From a virus, in the IMG/VR virus record IMGVR_UViG_3300000956_000027, positions 1-26,561 of that record: DNA of 26,561 nt; one strand, given 5' to 3'. A program made the translations under genes and the position numbers. This document shows positions 2,250 to 20,013 of the stretch, piece after piece. The notes under the pieces are model-generated. The model saw only the letters and a list, made by a program, of their open reading frames with translations, was not told the origin of the DNA and ran no database searches. How positions within the stretch are numbered: position 1 is the stretch's first letter; each line of letters begins with the position of its first letter.

Positions 2250-2461
2250 TGGCTCACATCCTGGAGGACCAGCGTGCAGCGCTGATTGCAGGACTAGGGG
2301 GCGACCCTCTCCTGTCTTTCTTGCAGCATCACGAACTGATGTTCCTCTACCTTGGCAACGTTGAGCTTCGTACAGAGCTTACGCTCATTGAGCGTCTGAA
2401 GGGATGGGCGGATGCAAACAGCATCCCCCTCACCCTAGCGTGGCTCCAAGTGGGTTTTTAG
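2249..2461 (+). CDS. Hypothetical 70-aa protein with a candidate -1 frameshift end
   Basis: This 70-residue protein of unknown family is coupled to the preceding gene through a TAATG overlap. It is mostly helical in appearance (EDQRAALIAGL, LSFLQHHELMFLYLG, ELTLIERLKGWADANS), is mildly acidic in places, and has no clear membrane segment. The last two sense codons, GGT TTT, together with the preceding G form the heptamer G-GGT-TTT directly before the TAG stop. The -1 frame stays open for 23 more codons beyond it, and a stem-loop lies downstream, so a 93-residue extended form is likely to exist as well. No function can be assigned from sequence. Confidence 0.65.
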   Translation: MAHILEDQRAALIAGLGGDPLLSFLQHHELMFLYLGNVELRTELTLIERLKGWADANSIPLTLAWLQVGF

Positions 2462-2487
2462 CAGTCCCTCTCATGGATGAAGAGGGA
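2452..2487 (+). promoter_or_regulatory. Candidate programmed -1 ribosomal frameshift site
   Basis: The heptamer GGGTTTT (2452-2458) fits the X-XXY-YYZ slippery pattern in the reading frame of the 70-aa gene. It is followed directly by the zero-frame TAG (2459-2461). After a 6-nt spacer, TCCCTCT (2465-2471) pairs perfectly with AGAGGGA (2481-2487) around a 9-nt loop. Slippery site, spacer and stem stand in the canonical order and distance of known -1 sites. GGG-type slippery sites are usually of modest efficiency; the lambda tail assembly site GGGAAAG is a related example. Confidence 0.55.
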
Positions 2488-2529
2488 AATTTGCTTACGG
2501 ATGAGGATGACGTACCCCTAACTACCTGA
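2458..2529 (+). CDS. Frameshift extension encoding an acidic 23-residue tail
   Basis: Read in the -1 frame from TTA at 2458, this stretch encodes LAVPL and then MDEEGNLLTDEDDVPLTT before TGA at 2527. The tail is strongly acidic, and its codons (ACG, GAT, GAG, CCC) resemble the phage's own usage. The internal ATG at 2473 has no Shine-Dalgarno sequence, so independent translation of an 18-residue peptide is less likely than fusion to the preceding 70-residue protein. The other possible explanation is that a frameshift mutation split an originally single 93-residue gene. Confidence 0.45.
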   Translation, partial: LAVPLMDEEGNLLTDEDDVPLTT

Positions 2530-2565: not shown

Positions 2566-4059
2566 ATGGCAATTAAATTGAGCCAGCTGTCGGATACGTC
2601 CGTCAATGCTTTGCTCTCTAAGCTGGGCTTCGGCACTACGAAGCAATCCATCCTTCGTCACTACCAAACCTCCGATGGTTCCAATTGGAGCTTGGCGGTC
2701 AATCGCGCTATTGCGGCTGGGGTGACGAAGATTATATTCCCTGAAGGCAGCTACACGCTAGCCACTCCCATCGACTACGTCTCTGGACTAATCCTGGAAG
2801 GCGAGAAGGAGATGAAGACCTCCGCCGTTGGCGGCAGCAGGATTACGGCGAATGCTGGCTTCATCAAGAATGCCAACACCACACGCAAGCAGATTGTAGT
2901 TCGCAACCTGCTCATCATGGGCAATCGCACTGCGGGGTCTGTTGGTATTGATGGTCCCTTTGGCGGCACTATCGAAGGCTGCCGCATCACAGGCTTCGAC
3001 CACCTCATCCGCAATGCCTCTGGCTACCTTTGCCAATACATCCGATGCAACTTCGCTAACGCGGCCTTCGGAATCAACACGGCGGATGCTAACGGCACTG
3101 TCGTAGAGAATTGCCACTTCAACGATGACGTGGCCGTCCAAGTGACGACGCGAGACGTTACGCCCCAGAGCGGCGTGAACAGCGGCCTGCCGCTGGTCCT
3201 TCGCGAGAACAACCACAACCTCACTGACCTCACCACTGTAGCGCTGAAGATTCGCGGACAGGTGAGCGTGCGTGACTGCTACTTTGAGAAATTCAGTGGC
3301 AGCGTGGCCAACACAATGGTGGACCTGGAAGTCAATCGCTTTGACCACCAAGGCTTCATCATGGAGAACTGTGAGCTAAACGGCCAGAGTGCGAATTGCA
3401 CGGGCCTCTACATCAATGGCTCCCACCTCAACCTGGAGAATTGGACGGAAGGACGCGTCACTACCAACCGCTTCATCGGCCTCGCCCACCATGTTGTGTA
3501 TGGCCCGAACAATCGTGTTCCTGGCCTGAAGATTTATGGCAACTCTCGCACGACGGGCGATTTCAACATCGTCGTGGAGAACAGCTACCAGAACCAGCAC
3601 GTTCCCACGTATGACGGCTGGACCTACCTGCGCCTCGCCTCGGACTTCTCCAATTCCACTACGTCAATGACTGACGTCACGGGCTTGGCGTTTACGCCTG
3701 ATGCCAGCGCCGAATACATCGTGGAAGGCACGCTGATGCTCCAGTCGGCAGCTGCCACCACAGGCCCCCAGCCTGGAATTGTTTGGCCCACCAACGTGGG
3801 CACGGGTGTGTACTACACACAGCAGGCAAGCGCAGCAGGCAGCACTACGCCTCGCTATGGCAACACTACGGCTAACTTCACGAGCGGTGCAGCAGATATT
3901 GCTGATGCCACTGGCCCCTGGCCCCACAAGTTGGAAGCAACGTTCCACACCGCTTCCAATGTTTCTGGGGATTTCAAAATCACTCTCCGCAGCGAGGTTG
4001 CAGCTAGCAACGTCACTATGCTGGCGGGTTCCTGGATTCGTTATCGGAGACTTATTTAA
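2566..4059 (+). CDS. Tail spike, right-handed beta-helix (497 aa)
   Basis: The protein begins with a short N-terminal segment (residues 1-45), followed by the pectate-lyase-superfamily entry GVTKIIFPEGSYTLATPI. Short repeating strands rich in Asn, Gly and Val follow (about 70-345; examples are GGTIEGCRITGF and ANGTVVENCHF), typical of trimeric beta-helix spikes that cleave or bind capsule or O-antigen. From about 358 a separate C-terminal beta-sandwich-like domain (TPDASAEYIVEGTLML) probably trims or trimerises the spike. It lacks the helical anchor module seen in the 676-aa spike, so it probably docks on another spike or adaptor. Start ATG 2566 has AAGGG nine bases upstream. The next gene overlaps by TAATG. 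Substrate and catalytic residues cannot be read from sequence. Confidence 0.8.
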   Translation: MAIKLSQLSDTSVNALLSKLGFGTTKQSILRHYQTSDGSNWSLAVNRAIAAGVTKIIFPEGSYTLATPIDYVSGLILEGEKEMKTSAVGGSRITANAGFIKNANTTRKQIVVRNLLIMGNRTAGSVGIDGPFGGTIEGCRITGFDHLIRNASGYLCQYIRCNFANAAFGINTADANGTVVENCHFNDDVAVQVTTRDVTPQSGVNSGLPLVLRENNHNLTDLTTVALKIRGQVSVRDCYFEKFSGSVANTMVDLEVNRFDHQGFIMENCELNGQSANCTGLYINGSHLNLENWTEGRVTTNRFIGLAHHVVYGPNNRVPGLKIYGNSRTTGDFNIVVENSYQNQHVPTYDGWTYLRLASDFSNSTTSMTDVTGLAFTPDASAEYIVEGTLMLQSAAATTGPQPGIVWPTNVGTGVYYTQQASAAGSTTPRYGNTTANFTSGAADIADATGPWPHKLEATFHTASNVSGDFKITLRSEVAASNVTMLAGSWIRYRRLI

Positions 4060-4265
4060 TGGCTAAGGAAAAGATGTCGCGCCTGGGATTGGCCGATCCT
4101 CGCTCTGGCGCAGAGCGCGTGGCTGGTTTGGTCAATCGTGTGGCCAGTGGTAATCGCAAGAGTCCTGTTCGCAAATACGACGACACTCCGGCGCAAATGG
4201 CCGCTAAGCGCAAGGCTTCGGCTCCCACGGGCAAGGCTGCTCCCAAGCGCAAGAAGGCTAAGTAA
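4059..4265 (+). CDS. Small basic hypothetical protein (68 aa)
   Basis: This 68-residue protein is rich in Lys, Arg and Ala, with a C-terminal tail (KAAPKRKKAK) like that of nucleic-acid-binding or disordered proteins. It lies between two tail spikes and overlaps both neighbours by single-base TAATG junctions, so it is translationally coupled. It resembles in composition, but not clearly in sequence, the basic 130-residue protein encoded after the portal gene. I do not recognise a family. Possible roles are nucleic acid binding or a small structural accessory, neither demonstrated. Confidence 0.6.
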   Translation: MAKEKMSRLGLADPRSGAERVAGLVNRVASGNRKSPVRKYDDTPAQMAAKRKASAPTGKAAPKRKKAK

Positions 4266-4471
4266 TGAACGTCGTGCAGGGAGAGTTCTGGGCCTTTATC
4301 TTTCCAGACAATATGGAAGATTTCCGCAAGCGTTACGGAGCAGACGTCATTGCTGTTGATCTGGAAGAAGGCTCTCTGGCGGTGATTGGCCCAAATGATC
4401 GGGACTGGCGAGAGATTCCTAGCGATGTGGAGTCTGGGCTCAAGGTGGTGAAACTCAGGAGCAAGGACTAA
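4265..4471 (+). CDS. Small acidic hypothetical protein (68 aa)
   Basis: A compact 68-residue protein with an apparent alpha/beta layout: strand GEFWAFIF, helix NMEDFRKRYG, strand DVIAVDLEE, strand SLAVIGPND, and a final strand GLKVVKLRS. It starts in a TAATG overlap with the basic gene upstream and ends directly next to the ATG of the 676-aa spike, with no intergenic base. Small proteins beside spike genes can be spike chaperones or assembly factors. That is context only, because I do not recognise the family. Confidence 0.6.
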   Translation: MNVVQGEFWAFIFPDNMEDFRKRYGADVIAVDLEEGSLAVIGPNDRDWREIPSDVESGLKVVKLRSKD

Positions 4472-6502
4472 ATGGCGAAGTACGATCCACTAAATACAAT
4501 CACCTCCCTTGCCAACACTAGCTCGGCCAAGGAAGCTCTGAACGAAAACTTCAGCCGTCTGGCGGAAGCGATTGACGACACGCTTAGTCGTACAGGTCGC
4601 ACTCCGAACCAGATGGAAGCTGACATCGACATGGACAGCAATGACCTGCTTAACGCAGGTCGCGTCGATGCTCAAGAATACTATCTCAATGGTGTGCCGT
4701 GGGAACAGACGGTTGCTTACGCGAATAAGCAATACGAGACGTTCTCTGGTGATGGAGTCAACCTAGACTTCACGCTCAACAAGAATCCCGGAAGCCTGGG
4801 CAATCTTGAGGTGAGCATTGAAGGTGTGATGCAGCGTCCCGGCATCGACTTCACCTTCAACGACACCACCCTCCATTTCACTACAGCTCCCCCGGACGGG
4901 GAGGACAACATCCTCGTCCGTTACGATGAAGCCCTTTCTGCTGGCGTAGGCGATAGCGCCAGCATTCTTTACACGCCCCCGTCCACGGGAGAGTCCGGCA
5001 GTGTTCGTGACTTCCTGGACAGCCTGTGGGCCGCTACGACCACTAAGGGCTCTGCCCTCATCCGCTGGATTGGTGACGGTGTTGGCGCTGTTGCGCGTTC
5101 TGTCTGGTCTAAGCTTGCCGATCACATGGACATCCGAGATTTCGGTGGCGTGGGTGATGGCACGGTAGATGACAGCGTTGCACTAACCAATGCTCTTGCG
5201 GAAGCTGTTAGCAGCGGCAAGCCTCTTCGCGTTCCTGCTGGCATCTGGAAGATTACGACGGAAGCCGTTGTAGACCTTGATGCCTTTGAGGGCGTGGTGA
5301 TCTACGGCGACGGCTCTGGACGCACGGTGTTCAAGGTGGATACGCCTAGCGGCGACTTCCTGTCCATCACGTCCGATCCGGGCAATTGGTGGATGGAAGT
5401 GGACAAGCGCTCTAAGGTGGCGCTGCGCTACTTCTCCGTTGCTACGGAAAACACCAACCAGGGTGTGGGCATCAAGTTGAACATGGGCTCCGTTGAAGGA
5501 CGCCCCGCTCCGCTGGTGGACATCACGGACGTAGAGGTGCGAGGCTACAACAGCTTCTTCCACTACTTCACCAAGGGCTTCTACCTGCTGGATACGACGG
5601 ACGCCCGCGTGGCGCGTTCTCGCGTCATCCAGGGCGGTCCTGGCAACACTAACGGCATTGGCTTTGACATTCAGTCGTCTAGTTCCACCAGCGACCCCAC
5701 CAGCATCAAATTCCATGACTGCGAAGTGGTGTATGGCCAATATGGCTGGCAGATTGGTGATTATGTTGAAGGCGTCTACCTGACCCAATGCGACGGCGTG
5801 AACGTCACTACGGCAGTGAGGGCTGTCAATACCACGGGTGAGTCTGGCCTCCACATTGTTGGTGGACATGCCAACTGCTCGGGCGTCTGCTACGACCTGG
5901 ATGGTATGCACGACTTCATCATCCACGGCCCGCTCATGTATAGCTCGGCTGGTTCTGGTAGCTGGCGTGGGGTTAAGGTTCGTAACGGTGCTAGCGGAAC
6001 CATCACCGGCTGTGTGATGCGTGCAGGCACGACGGTGGGTGAGATTGGTATTGATGTTGATGCGCTCCCTGGCGGATTCCACGGCCTCGTGATCGCAGAC
6101 AACCACATCTCCAACATTGCCACGGGCATCCAGCTTGGCGCTGGTGCTCTGAACGTAGATGTTGGTCGCAACCATTTCGTCAACGTCGGCGCTCGCGTCA
6201 CCAACCTTGCTGGCCTCGCTGCTGGCAACATCATCTACACGCGCCAATGGCCCAGCTTCATCGACATCACCCCTGCTGGTGGTGCACCATCCGAAAACAT
6301 TGACATCACCTTGCCTGCTGGCTACTTCGCTACGAAGCCCACGGTGGTGGTTGGAAGCAGCGCTTCCCAGGGGCTTACATTGGTGTATGACCATGCCAGT
6401 GCTTTTAGCACGGCTACCAACGCACGTTGTCAAATTCATAAGCTCGGCGGTGGCAACATTCTAGCTGCCGCCACTCGTATCACCTTTCTAGCCGTGGAGT
6501 AA
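4472..6502 (+). CDS. Anchored tail spike with beta-helix domain (676 aa)
   Basis: The N-terminus is a tail-attachment module. Helical residues 18-42 (SAKEALNENFSRLAEAIDD) lead to MEADIDMDSNDLLNAG (48-63), then a small beta-domain (about 88-153) with DFTLNKNPGSLGNLEVSIEG. This is the same two-part module as in the 239-aa protein encoded at 9016. After a linker comes MDIRDFGGVGDGTVDDSVAL (about 219-238), the classic start of phage pectate-lyase-fold spikes, and then a long right-handed beta-helix to about 590. A terminal beta-domain (about 592-676) follows, containing ITLPAGYF-like strands. It probably binds the tail directly and recognises or depolymerises a surface polysaccharide. Of the three spikes it is the only one with this anchor, so it may carry the others. 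Confidence 0.85.
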   Translation: MAKYDPLNTITSLANTSSAKEALNENFSRLAEAIDDTLSRTGRTPNQMEADIDMDSNDLLNAGRVDAQEYYLNGVPWEQTVAYANKQYETFSGDGVNLDFTLNKNPGSLGNLEVSIEGVMQRPGIDFTFNDTTLHFTTAPPDGEDNILVRYDEALSAGVGDSASILYTPPSTGESGSVRDFLDSLWAATTTKGSALIRWIGDGVGAVARSVWSKLADHMDIRDFGGVGDGTVDDSVALTNALAEAVSSGKPLRVPAGIWKITTEAVVDLDAFEGVVIYGDGSGRTVFKVDTPSGDFLSITSDPGNWWMEVDKRSKVALRYFSVATENTNQGVGIKLNMGSVEGRPAPLVDITDVEVRGYNSFFHYFTKGFYLLDTTDARVARSRVIQGGPGNTNGIGFDIQSSSSTSDPTSIKFHDCEVVYGQYGWQIGDYVEGVYLTQCDGVNVTTAVRAVNTTGESGLHIVGGHANCSGVCYDLDGMHDFIIHGPLMYSSAGSGSWRGVKVRNGASGTITGCVMRAGTTVGEIGIDVDALPGGFHGLVIADNHISNIATGIQLGAGALNVDVGRNHFVNVGARVTNLAGLAAGNIIYTRQWPSFIDITPAGGAPSENIDITLPAGYFATKPTVVVGSSASQGLTLVYDHASAFSTATNARCQIHKLGGGNILAAATRITFLAVE

Positions 6503-6505
6503 GCG

Positions 6506-8068
6506 ATGCAGAAAGTATCCGACAGGATGCTCCTAGATCAGCGCGTCATCACGCTCACCTCCCAGGGCTATAACGTCCGGGGAGATGGGGTGACGGACGA
6601 CACTGTAGCCATCAAGGCCGCTTTCCAAGCGGCTGCTGCAATGGGACTGAAGCTGTATGTCCCTGGCTACGACTACAAGCTGACCAACACGCTCTCTTGG
6701 ACCATTACGTCTGATTTTGAAGTGGAGTGTCATCCTGGAGCGACGTTCATCGCTGACTCCAGCTTCCCCGTTGACGCAAAGATGGTGCAGCCGTCTTCGT
6801 CCACAGGCACCAATCGCTTCAAGTGGGTTGGCGGCACGCTGGACGGGCGCAACATGCCCGCGCGTGTTTCCGGGGCTCCTGACCTTCTCTACATCTCTTC
6901 GCAAAACCTGAAGTATGTGGAGATTGAGGGGGTCAAGTTCCTCAACAACAACGACAGAACGGGCACGGCTGGAGACAGCAGCCTGTTCCTGGCCGAAGGC
7001 GAAGACTACAAGGTTACGAAGTGCTACTTCCAGGGCGCTGTTGATAGCGGCATCTACATCTCTGGCGACAACGCCGAGACTGTTGGTCGCCGTTGCCTCG
7101 TCACGGATTGCACCTTCAAAGACCTGGGCGTCGGGGTTATTTCCAAGCGTGGCTTCCAAGACCACACTGTCAACGACAACGAGTTTGAGCGGGTGAACAC
7201 CGCCGTCGTGATCGGCGGCATTGGTGACGTAGGCACCACGGGACGCAAAGCCACCATCAATGACAACATCCTGAAGAACGTGAGCAGAGGCATTGAAGCT
7301 CGCGTTGCTGATGGCACTGTCATCATGGGCAATCGAATTGAGGATTGGGGCATTAGCGCCGCTGGCGCTGCTGTTGCTGAGTATGCAATTCGCATTGCTG
7401 GATCGAAGTATTGTGATGTTGTTGGCAACGTCTGCATTCAGACGGGCCTCGTCACTCCCAACGCTGCTACGGCAGGCATTCTCTTTGAGCGTCGCACAGA
7501 ACTTGGTGTTGACTACGACAGCACGGACAACCTCGCCCTCGGCAACATGATTCGTGGTGCTTCGCGAGGGGTTGTGGAAACCACTGGCGCAGATCGCAAC
7601 GTGATTCGCGGCAACCCCATGTCTGGCCTCACTGGCGCTCGTATGGTCATAGTGGGAGCCTCCACGCTTTACGAAGACATTGATGTGGGTAACACACGTA
7701 GCCATCAGCGGTTTGGTGCCAGCGGGGCCACCCCCATTAATGGCAGCATCACGGTGGTGGAGAATGATGGCGATCTGATTGAAAGCAAGCTCACCCCCGG
7801 CACGAATGCGTACATCCTGATGGTGGGTGATCCGGCATCCAATTCTGTTGGACGAATTGCTTACGATCACACCACAGACAGGTGGACGTTCCGCGCAGGC
7901 GGCGGCGGGGTAAGTTTCTCTATTGGCAATGGAACAACGGGCTTCTATGCCACTACGCCCATTGCTAAGCCCACTGTGACTGGAAGCAGGGGCGGCAATG
8001 CTGCCTTGGCTTCAGTGCTTACACAATTGGCTGCCCTCGGGCTCCTGACGGATAGTAGCTCCGCATGA
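6506..8068 (+). CDS. Tail spike, right-handed beta-helix (520 aa)
   Basis: The protein starts almost at once with the spike signature GYNVRGDGVTDDTVAIKAAF (about residues 20-39) and LKLYVPGYDYKLTNTL, so only some 19 residues precede the pectate-lyase fold. A beta-helix follows (about 60-400), with repeated short strands such as NRIEDWG and NVCIQTG. The C-terminal part (about 418-520) has a small beta-domain and ends in KPTVTGSRGGNAALASVLTQ plus a hydrophobic helix, a terminal segment common in phage tail fibres. With no anchor module, its short N-terminus probably docks onto another tail component. The stop overlaps the spanin start (ATGA). Confidence 0.8.
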   Translation: MQKVSDRMLLDQRVITLTSQGYNVRGDGVTDDTVAIKAAFQAAAAMGLKLYVPGYDYKLTNTLSWTITSDFEVECHPGATFIADSSFPVDAKMVQPSSSTGTNRFKWVGGTLDGRNMPARVSGAPDLLYISSQNLKYVEIEGVKFLNNNDRTGTAGDSSLFLAEGEDYKVTKCYFQGAVDSGIYISGDNAETVGRRCLVTDCTFKDLGVGVISKRGFQDHTVNDNEFERVNTAVVIGGIGDVGTTGRKATINDNILKNVSRGIEARVADGTVIMGNRIEDWGISAAGAAVAEYAIRIAGSKYCDVVGNVCIQTGLVTPNAATAGILFERRTELGVDYDSTDNLALGNMIRGASRGVVETTGADRNVIRGNPMSGLTGARMVIVGASTLYEDIDVGNTRSHQRFGASGATPINGSITVVENDGDLIESKLTPGTNAYILMVGDPASNSVGRIAYDHTTDRWTFRAGGGGVSFSIGNGTTGFYATTPIAKPTVTGSRGGNAALASVLTQLAALGLLTDSSSA

Positions 8069-8508
8069 TTGGCATTTTTGAAAAAGTAATGGCGGGGGCG
8101 CTTGTATTGGCCCTCGCCTTTGGTGGATGGCAATGGGTGGCTAAGACACGCCTTGAGGCGAAGCTGGCCAATGTCGAGGCTCGCCTGGACCTTCAGGAAG
8201 CTCTCACCAAAAACACCCAAGAGCGAATGGCATCTGAATTGGAAGTCATCGCTAAGCAACACAAAAAGGACCAAGAAGATGCGGACAAACTTGAAGCTTC
8301 TCTTCGCAGCCAGCTTCGCTCTGCTGCTCTCAAGCTGCGCGACCACTACACCTGTCCTAGTGGACCCTCCGAAGGTGGACTCAGCCCTGATGAAGCAGCC
8401 CGACTTCGAGAAGAGGATGCGGCAGCGTCTATTGCAGACGCCAAGCGAGCAGACGACTGGATCAAACGACTCCAGGAAGTGATTAAGGAGTATCAGAGTG
8501 TACGATGA
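8065..8508 (+). CDS. Rz: i-spanin (Rz-like, inner membrane)
   Basis: This 147-residue protein has one N-terminal membrane segment (residues 8-25, MAGALVLALAFGGWQWVA). A long charged coiled-coil region follows (about 28-95, rich in Glu, Lys, Leu and Ala), then a short linker and another helix (ASIADAKRADDWIKRLQEVI). This is the layout of a Gram-negative phage i-spanin, which spans the periplasm and pairs with the outer-membrane o-spanin to fuse the two membranes at lysis. The o-spanin gene is nested within it in the +1-shifted frame. It overlaps the spike upstream (ATGA) and TerS downstream by 11 bases. No holin or endolysin gene is adjacent. Confidence 0.88.
   Translation: MIGIFEKVMAGALVLALAFGGWQWVAKTRLEAKLANVEARLDLQEALTKNTQERMASELEVIAKQHKKDQEDADKLEASLRSQLRSAALKLRDHYTCPSGPSEGGLSPDEAARLREEDAAASIADAKRADDWIKRLQEVIKEYQSVR
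8279..8482 (+). CDS. Rz1: o-spanin (Rz1-like outer-membrane lipoprotein), nested in Rz
   Basis: A 67-residue lipoprotein is encoded entirely inside the i-spanin gene in another frame. The signal peptide MRTNLKLLFAASFALLLSSC has a textbook lipobox (LSSC, Cys20) with Ala at +2, which predicts outer-membrane sorting. The mature part starts ATTTPVLVDPPKVD and is short and proline-containing, as in Rz1 proteins. The frame is open further upstream (to 8102), but ATG 8279 is clearly the start because it begins the signal peptide and has AAAAAGGA eight bases upstream. The fully embedded arrangement is the same as the classical lambda Rz/Rz1 pair. Confidence 0.9.
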   Translation: MRTNLKLLFAASFALLLSSCATTTPVLVDPPKVDSALMKQPDFEKRMRQRLLQTPSEQTTGSNDSRK

Positions 8509-17405: not shown

Positions 17406-19571
17406 ATGACCCAGCAATCCACTAATAAGAATTATCACACTTTCGTAAGGGGGATTATCACCGAAGCTGGGCCACTCACGTTCCCTGAGAATGCTGCGCT
17501 AGACATCGACAATGTTGTGCTCTCTCGTAAGGGCGCTCTGCTTCGTCGCCTGGGGATGGACTTTGAGGACGACTTCGTTCTCATCGACACGCCTCTCCAG
17601 GCTGACGATGCTGTAGCAGCCTACCTCTGGGAGAACGCAGCTAACGATGCGGCCAATCAATTCGGAGTGGTGCAGGCAGGGCATCTACTGCACTTCTTCG
17701 ACTTGAATGCAGCCAGTGCTTCGGCTAACAGGTTTGCCTTTGTAGACCTGAGTGCTTACATCAACCCCAACGCCCCCATCCAGGTGGCTAGCGGTTTGGG
17801 CAAGCTGTTCATCACGAGTGGCGTAGCTGCTCCCATCTATCTCACCTACGACCCCGTTACGCAGGGAGTGAGTGTCACACAATACCCCATCCTGATTCGG
17901 GATGTGTTTGGTGTGGAAGACAACCTAGAGGTGAGTGAGCAGCCTGCTGCGCTTACGGTGGAGCATCATTACAACCTGTTCAACCAGGGGTGGGATGATA
18001 CGCGCATCAACGCCTACAAGGCTGAGAACACTGTAGCCCCCACGGCTGTATATCCTGCCAACTCCCAGCAATGGTTTGTAGGTAAGGACACGGATGACAA
18101 CTTCGACCCCATCCTCCTGAAGAAGCAGGACTTCGGAACTACTCCAGCCCCTCGGGGCCGCTACATCATTGATAGCTCTGACTACACCAATTCTCGCAAC
18201 CTTGCTTCGGGACTTACGCTTCCTGCGGCTGCTGATATTGGACGCCCTAGCGCTGTCGTCTTTGCCTTCCAACGTCTGTTCTATTCTGGTGTAAAGAGCC
18301 AGCTGACAGGCGCTACAGGAAAGCAGCCCGACACCTCCGGCTTTATCTACTACACGCGCACGCTGCGCTCTGTAGAGGATGCCAAGCAATGCTACGCAGA
18401 AGCCGACCCTACTTCCGAATTTGACAGCGAGCTTGTTGATACGGACGGCGGCTTCATCAACATCCCCAACTGTGGACACATCTACAAGCTCCTGGAGATT
18501 GGCACCTACGTTGTGGTGTTTGCCGAGAAGGGCGTGTGGGGAATCACGGGTGGTGATGGGGGCTTTACGGCCACGGTGAATCAGGTGGTGAAGCTCTCCA
18601 ACTTCGGCGTGCTGTCTGCCTCTAGCGTGGTGGATGCGGAAGACAGGGCCTACTATTGGAACCGTGGTGGTATCTACCTCCTGGAAACCAACGAGGTGGG
18701 GTTGCTGTCTGCCCGCAACATCACGGAAGACACAATTCAAACGCTCTTCAATGACTTGCCCCAGGCAGCCAAGGAGACGGCCGTAGGGTCTTATGATCCT
18801 GTCAATCGCCGTGTCACTTGGATGTATAACCGCGATCCAGACTACACCACGGCAACGTTCCGCAATCGCTACGATGGGGAGCTTGTCCTAGACACGGTGT
18901 TGGGAGCTTTCTACAAGCACAGCATCAGCAGCTACGACGACCCTTCCCCCTACATCGCCGGCTACGTCCTAACGCCTAATTTCGTGACGGACCTGGAAGG
19001 GGAGCGTCCTCGTGGTAACGGCGTGACGAAGTATCTGACGGTGCAATTCATTGACCCAGATGCAGACATAGCTTCTGTCTCCTTCGCTCACTATCGTGAC
19101 CAGACCTTCCGTGATTGGAAGAGTTTGGATGGCGTGGGAAGCAGCTACCTCAGCTACATCCTGACGGGCTACGAAATCATGGGCGATAGCGCCCGAGATA
19201 AGCAAACCCCCTACGTCACCACACACTTCACCTTCACTGAGACGGAAGCGCAATGGGGCAGCCCTGAGTTTCCTGTCAGCGATGAGTTGTTCCCCGTCAA
19301 TCCTTCTGGCTGCATTTTGCAGGCGCAGTGGGATTGGTCGAACAGCCCCGAAAGTGGCAAGTGGAGTAGTGAGATAAATGCCTACAGGCTGCTCCGTCAG
19401 TGGACGGCCAACGAGGAAGGCCCTGTCAATTACGGGCAGGCCGTCATTACCAACAAACACAACATCCCTGGATCGGGCAAGGCTCTGAGCCTCTACTTCC
19501 GTTCCGATGGCGATAAGGACTTCCAGCTACAAGGCTGGTCTACCCGTTTCACTGGACAGGCGAATGTATAA
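17406..19571 (+). CDS. Tail tubular protein B (gp12-like nozzle)
   Basis: The 721-residue protein opens with TFVRGIITEAGPLTFPENAA and then D-I-D-N-V-V-L-S-R-K-G-A-L-L-R-R-L-G-M-D. This is the recognisable N-terminal signature of T7 gp12-type nozzle proteins (x-G-x-x-T-E-A-x-x-L-x-F-P). The rest is beta-rich with many aromatic residues, as expected for the beta-propeller nozzle. Six copies form the lower tail tube and hold the fibres. The length is close to that of T7 gp12 (about 790). AGAGACAGAG precedes the ATG. The next gene starts inside its last codons. Confidence 0.85.
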   Translation: MTQQSTNKNYHTFVRGIITEAGPLTFPENAALDIDNVVLSRKGALLRRLGMDFEDDFVLIDTPLQADDAVAAYLWENAANDAANQFGVVQAGHLLHFFDLNAASASANRFAFVDLSAYINPNAPIQVASGLGKLFITSGVAAPIYLTYDPVTQGVSVTQYPILIRDVFGVEDNLEVSEQPAALTVEHHYNLFNQGWDDTRINAYKAENTVAPTAVYPANSQQWFVGKDTDDNFDPILLKKQDFGTTPAPRGRYIIDSSDYTNSRNLASGLTLPAAADIGRPSAVVFAFQRLFYSGVKSQLTGATGKQPDTSGFIYYTRTLRSVEDAKQCYAEADPTSEFDSELVDTDGGFINIPNCGHIYKLLEIGTYVVVFAEKGVWGITGGDGGFTATVNQVVKLSNFGVLSASSVVDAEDRAYYWNRGGIYLLETNEVGLLSARNITEDTIQTLFNDLPQAAKETAVGSYDPVNRRVTWMYNRDPDYTTATFRNRYDGELVLDTVLGAFYKHSISSYDDPSPYIAGYVLTPNFVTDLEGERPRGNGVTKYLTVQFIDPDADIASVSFAHYRDQTFRDWKSLDGVGSSYLSYILTGYEIMGDSARDKQTPYVTTHFTFTETEAQWGSPEFPVSDELFPVNPSGCILQAQWDWSNSPESGKWSSEINAYRLLRQWTANEEGPVNYGQAVITNKHNIPGSGKALSLYFRSDGDKDFQLQGWSTRFTGQANV

Positions 19572-20013
19572 CATCCGAATGGCAACGCCCGAAGACTTCC
19601 ATCAGATTCTTCCGATGGCGCAAGAGTTCATCGGCAAGGCAAAGGAATTCCAGGACATGCCTGTGGATGTTCCTTCTATCCTGGAGCACTACATCTCCAT
19701 GCTGCAATACGGCTTCGTGTTGGTGGCAGAGGATGAGGGGAAGTTGGTGGGGATGCTGGGCACTCTCGTAGGCCCCTTCCCCTTCAACCGCAACATCATC
19801 GTCGCTACGGAATGTATGTGGTGGGTGGACCCGGAATATCGCAGCAACAGGATTGCTGGTGCGTTGATGCAGGCTGCTGAAGAAGAGGCTCGCTCTGCCG
19901 GATGCCACAAGTTTGTCATGTCTGCTTTGGGCAGTAGCCCAGAAAAGGTGGGAGCGTATTACCAATCGAAGGGATACGCTCCGTATGAAACTGCTTACGT
20001 AAGGAGCATCTAA
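19564..20013 (+). CDS. GNAT-fold protein, T7 gp13-like position
   Basis: The likely start is ATG 19564 (an upstream in-frame ATG at 19507 would overlap the nozzle gene by 65 bases), giving 149 residues. The fold is GNAT: MYNIRMATPEDFHQILPMAQEF at the start, central strands FVLVAEDEGKLVGMLGTLVG, a motif-A-like VDPEYRSNRIAGALM (88-102) in place of the usual R/Q-x-x-G-x-G/A, and the motif-B-like end GAYYQSKGYAPYE. In T7-like phages a related acetyltransferase-fold protein (gp13) is needed for assembly of the internal ejection proteins. The position between nozzle and gp14-like genes matches. Whether it binds acetyl-CoA or is only structural is open. Confidence 0.75.
   Translation: MYNIRMATPEDFHQILPMAQEFIGKAKEFQDMPVDVPSILEHYISMLQYGFVLVAEDEGKLVGMLGTLVGPFPFNRNIIVATECMWWVDPEYRSNRIAGALMQAAEEEARSAGCHKFVMSALGSSPEKVGAYYQSKGYAPYETAYVRSI

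Follow-up and report, generated by a model that had tools for sequence, protein, structure and literature searches.

Most known cases of programmed frameshifting in phages come from tail chaperones, some capsid and tail-tube genes, and transposable elements. Outside phages, luteoviruses of the barley yellow dwarf type have a G_GGU_UUU_UAG site. On mammalian ribosomes, G_GGU_UUU ranks with the shiftiest sites, and the spacer of a -1 site usually measures 5-9 nt (PMC5009743). In Escherichia coli, R_RR.U_UU.Y motifs are exempt from a rule that disallows heptamers of mixed purines and pyrimidines; G_GG.U_UU.U lies outside the highest-efficiency classes, which with UUY need X to be U, C or A (PMC4066793). 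Searches that combine a heptamer with a downstream structure yield very many false positives (PMC10885494), and orphan frame transitions are mostly overlaps, indels or errors; frame transitions are also enriched toward the 3′ ends of genes, where indels are believed to do less harm (PMC3711429). Here we describe a candidate -1 frameshift cassette at the end of a 70-aa orphan gene of a podovirus.

Results

The DNA that we analyzed, referred to as the window herein, is a stretch of 26,561 nt that makes up a 26.6-kb IMG/VR virus record. Its terminase identifies it as a podovirus contig of Zobellviridae type, related to ICP2 and CW02; the closest terminases are those of uncultured podoviruses (∼57% identity), followed by those of ICP2-type phages (∼50%), whose records bear the family name Zobellviridae. 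From position 1354 onward the genes run head to tail with intergenic gaps that are mostly <20 nt. The late operon starts with a gene for a trypsin-like serine protease (1354-1953) that has a lipobox-like N-terminus (LALVPGC), and the matching place in the related locus L048 is occupied by an ORF judged by eye to be similar. The gene under study (2249-2461), which like every feature of the cassette and its two neighbors is on the plus strand, shares one base of its start with the stop of the previous gene and has a GGGAGG-type ribosome-binding site. It sits in this operon between a gene for a small basic protein matching the PHROGs family phrog_4590 (1965-2249), with HNH-like residues recognized by eye, and a gene for a 497-aa protein predicted to be a tail fibre or spike from a weak beta-helix match (2566-4059). 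The 104-nt gap on its 3′ side is the largest in the 25-gene operon, the runner-up being 59 nt. Elsewhere in the window, three long ORFs of tail fibre/spike type (497, 676, and 520 aa) with small ORFs between them fill 2566-8068, which suggests several receptor-binding proteins. An Rz-like spanin gene (8065-8508) contains a nested ORF in another frame (8102-8482) with a lipoprotein-type signal (LLLSSCATT), forming an Rz/Rz1-like pair, and the ORF at 19507-20013, GNAT acetyltransferase-like by eye only, overlaps the preceding gene by 65 nt.

A sequence-only reading of the window had proposed that the 70-aa gene ends in a slippery heptamer, a stop codon, a 6-nt spacer and a hairpin made of a perfect 7-bp stem and a loop of 9 nt, and inspection bore out each of these elements. 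The heptamer G_GGT_TTT (2452-2458) is in X_XXY_YYZ phase, and the zero-frame TAG stop (2459-2461) follows it immediately. Downstream of the spacer (2459-2464) lies the candidate stimulatory hairpin (2465-2487), in which TCCCTCT (2465-2471) pairs with AGAGGGA (2481-2487) around the loop CATGGATGA. RNA folding recovered this stem with an energy of -11.1 kcal/mol, a modest stability, and the folding energy of the whole 84-nt region was average (z -0.24). The locus accordingly has two features of a frameshift signal, an in-phase heptamer close to the zero-frame stop and a 3′ structure that begins 5-9 nt downstream, here the 7-bp stem at 6 nt. At the same site we saw no pseudoknot, no Shine-Dalgarno-like stimulator was visible by eye upstream of the heptamer, and an Rfam search returned sub-threshold chance matches only. 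We also considered the hairpin as a terminator and rejected this, since no T run follows the stem.

A further feature of a frameshift signal, a -1 frame that is coding past the stop, was found as well. Read in this frame, the gene continues through LAVPLMDEEGNLLTDEDDVPLTT (2458-2529) to a TGA at 2527-2529, confirming the 23 open codons that had been claimed, and the extension carries seven acidic residues. The codon usage of the extension resembles that of this phage's own genes: without the slip codon, its 22 codons had a score of 3.6 bits, which places them at the 13th percentile of real coding fragments of that length. For the zero frame, the coding score was +14.6 over 70 codons. A score as good as that of the tail was reached by 1.2-1.9% of open random sequences and by 0.4-0.7% of all random sequences, and the joint p for an open frame with codon usage this good was ∼0.005. 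When the zero-frame and -1-frame codon scores were summed, the maximum fell with the frame change at the heptamer; a change at 2434 or 2452 scored only ∼1 bit below this optimum. Given the codon score, the change point at the heptamer and the operon's one large gap, which the extension fills, the tail seems to be translated, or to have been so until recently, and this fits frameshifting and a lost base equally. The tail fibre ORF at 2566-4059 is in the same frame as the tail, but three stops intervene.

To weigh how unusual the cassette is for its coding context, we used the phage's own codon usage. Phage genes between 1354 and 25648 contain 7 heptamers of the X_XXZ_ZZN form in the slippery phase, compared with 24.2 ± 4.2 expected from within-gene synonymous shuffles, and the depletion was weaker in the other two phases. 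The probability that Val-Gly-Phe is encoded as G_GGT_TTT was 0.029, that of the stem given the tail peptide was 0.0067, and a folding energy test was weaker than the stem test (p 0.047). All of the tests against chance, the comparison of ORF ends below included, are post hoc, since the cassette had been chosen beforehand, and they overlap in part.

A rival reading is the loss of one base: the gene was, or is, one open frame of 93 codons with one more base around 2452-2458 (six T's, for instance), and a recent indel or an assembly error removed that base and detached the acidic tail. Such a loss would account for a tail that looks coding, a sixth T added to the five at the junction would fuse the two frames exactly, and orphan frame transitions, especially at the 3′ end, are often indels (PMC3711429). 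However, it requires two coincidences, the heptamer's phase (2.9% for Val-Gly-Phe) and the correctly spaced stem (0.67%), and a run of five to six T's is short for a consensus error. We regard a lost base as unlikely, while treating it as a serious rival.

We then compared the cassette with ORF ends in a first set of related contigs, which gave 2004 stop-to-stop ORFs of ≥60 codons. Of these, 12 (0.6%) had a heptamer immediately 5′ of the stop and 15 (0.75%) had a perfect stem of 7 bp at a distance of 4-9 nt; none of the 2004 had the two together, and the -1 frame was open for 23 codons in 44%. A relaxed definition (an A/T-type heptamer in the last 15 codons, a stem of at least 6 bp with G-U pairs allowed, and at least 15 codons of -1 frame past the stop) found nothing at 2000 ORF ends in related contigs. 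Within the window it found one cassette in a real gene, which was the 70-aa gene, and a second match in an antisense frame. The cassette is more than chance. Were it nevertheless coincidental, the 70-aa protein would be the sole product and 2462-2565 would be the non-coding leader of the tail fibre gene, as the average regional folding (z -0.24) and the lack of homologues would allow for a cassette picked out of many possible features. Set against this are a base rate below 1 in 2000 ORF ends, the joint p of ∼0.005 for tail codon usage and open frame, and a gap that is unusually long for the operon, and we judge coincidence quite improbable.

An independent overlapping gene, in which the tail would be translated from its own start at ATG 2404 (41 aa), ATG 2473 (18 aa) or an in-frame TTG near 2491 (∼12 aa), is highly improbable, because the 41-aa ORF (2404-2529), though in frame with the tail, has poor -1 codon usage in its first part (2404-2457) and neither ATG has a properly spaced Shine-Dalgarno, the GAAGGG next to ATG 2404 abutting it with zero spacing and hence being unusable. 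The earlier statement that the internal -1 ATG lacks a ribosome-binding site therefore holds for ATG 2473, but it had overlooked the upstream ATG at 2404.

Searches for relatives with both the 70-aa and 93-aa products found no homologue by tblastn on phage records (E up to 10), by pattern scans of IMG/VR and of GTDB genomes, in 35 whole related records, or in 134 loci, of which 80 have the upstream phrog_4590 gene; nor was there a match in Pfam or PHROGs. The collections searched may omit the records nearest the window, and close kin may exist unseen. The exact junction DNA had no match in viral contigs, and the tail peptide gave chance-level matches only against phages, the best being to IPLFDDEGNVVIDEEGNPVT of the tail fibre of phAPEC8 (E = 6). 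In L048-L050 the phrog_4590 gene is ∼70% identical, but other genes come after it. A kinship with a tail-protein N-terminal domain of these three loci, seen by eye, found no support (shuffle p 0.04-0.40; hhalign probability 0.3%), and small genes near phrog_4590 in ICP2 and VP41s3 proved unrelated. Directly 5′ of phrog_4590, relatives have a conserved ORF of 60-63 aa (682-873 in L017, 611-802 in L020, 112-294 in L031).

Discussion

Taken together, the tail codons, the change point, the depletion of slippery heptamers and the rare stem favor the programmed -1 frameshift of the sequence-only reading over chance, with an indel or assembly error as its serious rival. We give programmed -1 frameshifting at G_GGU_UUU, with products of 70 and 93 residues, an even chance of being correct. 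What the sequence shows is the set of elements, an alignment of them beyond chance and a tail that resembles coding DNA; slippage itself, its rate and its use are inferred. Ribosomes would translate the 70-aa gene in the zero frame up to G_GGU_UUU_UAG, where a fraction would be paused by the hairpin 6 nt downstream together with the stop codon. Upon slipping back by one base, tRNA-Phe would re-pair from UUU to UUU and tRNA-Gly from GGU to GGG, and the slipped ribosomes would read 23 further codons to the UGA. The output would be a 70-residue helical protein and a minority form of 93 residues with a strongly acidic C-terminal tail.

The 70-aa protein is predicted to be all helical, with helices at residues 4-15, 20-34, 37-56, and 61-68 (single-sequence AlphaFold2, mean pLDDT 72, moderate confidence), and a fold search with this model returned nothing significant. 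Judging from position only, our guess is that the product probably has to do with the virion, such as an accessory protein of the tail fibre made with and without the acidic tail. A virion or assembly accessory role is suggested because the protein is compact and helical, the acidic tail would be optional and tail fibre genes adjoin. More tentatively, and short of an even chance, the gene may represent a new family of small phage proteins that are neither tail chaperones nor capsids. In this family, encoded beside tail fibre genes, a -1 frameshift at G_GGU_UUU would determine how much of a helical protein is made with an acidic tail and how much without it. If verified, a small orphan gene in such a place would extend the search for recoding to further kinds of gene, supply a simple signal for bacterial ribosomes made of G_GGU_UUU and a hairpin, and show that tails of this kind are missed by gene callers.

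Compared with known systems, the locus shares with luteoviruses of the barley yellow dwarf type an identical heptamer directly before UAG; these differ in being eukaryotic RNA viruses with large downstream structures, and no relationship is implied. It also resembles the lambda G/GT tail assembly chaperone, where a small gene yields a minor longer form through a -1 frameshift close to its 3′ end (PMC5009743). Unlike G/GT, the gene is in a podovirus without the tape-measure gene context, and we found no sequence similarity between the two. We rejected a tail assembly chaperone of G/GT type, which would lie between the major tail protein and the tape measure; the neighbors here are phrog_4590 and tail fibre ORFs, in a terminase-portal podovirus layout. 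Phage T7 gene 10 (10A/10B) differs in encoding a capsid protein rather than a 70-aa orphan, and the probable capsid gene of our contig (14886-15860) ends without a heptamer. Like T7 gene 10, for which X_XX of the slippery site is G_GU, the locus described here is a podovirus gene that would yield a minority product with a C-terminal extension (PMC5009743).
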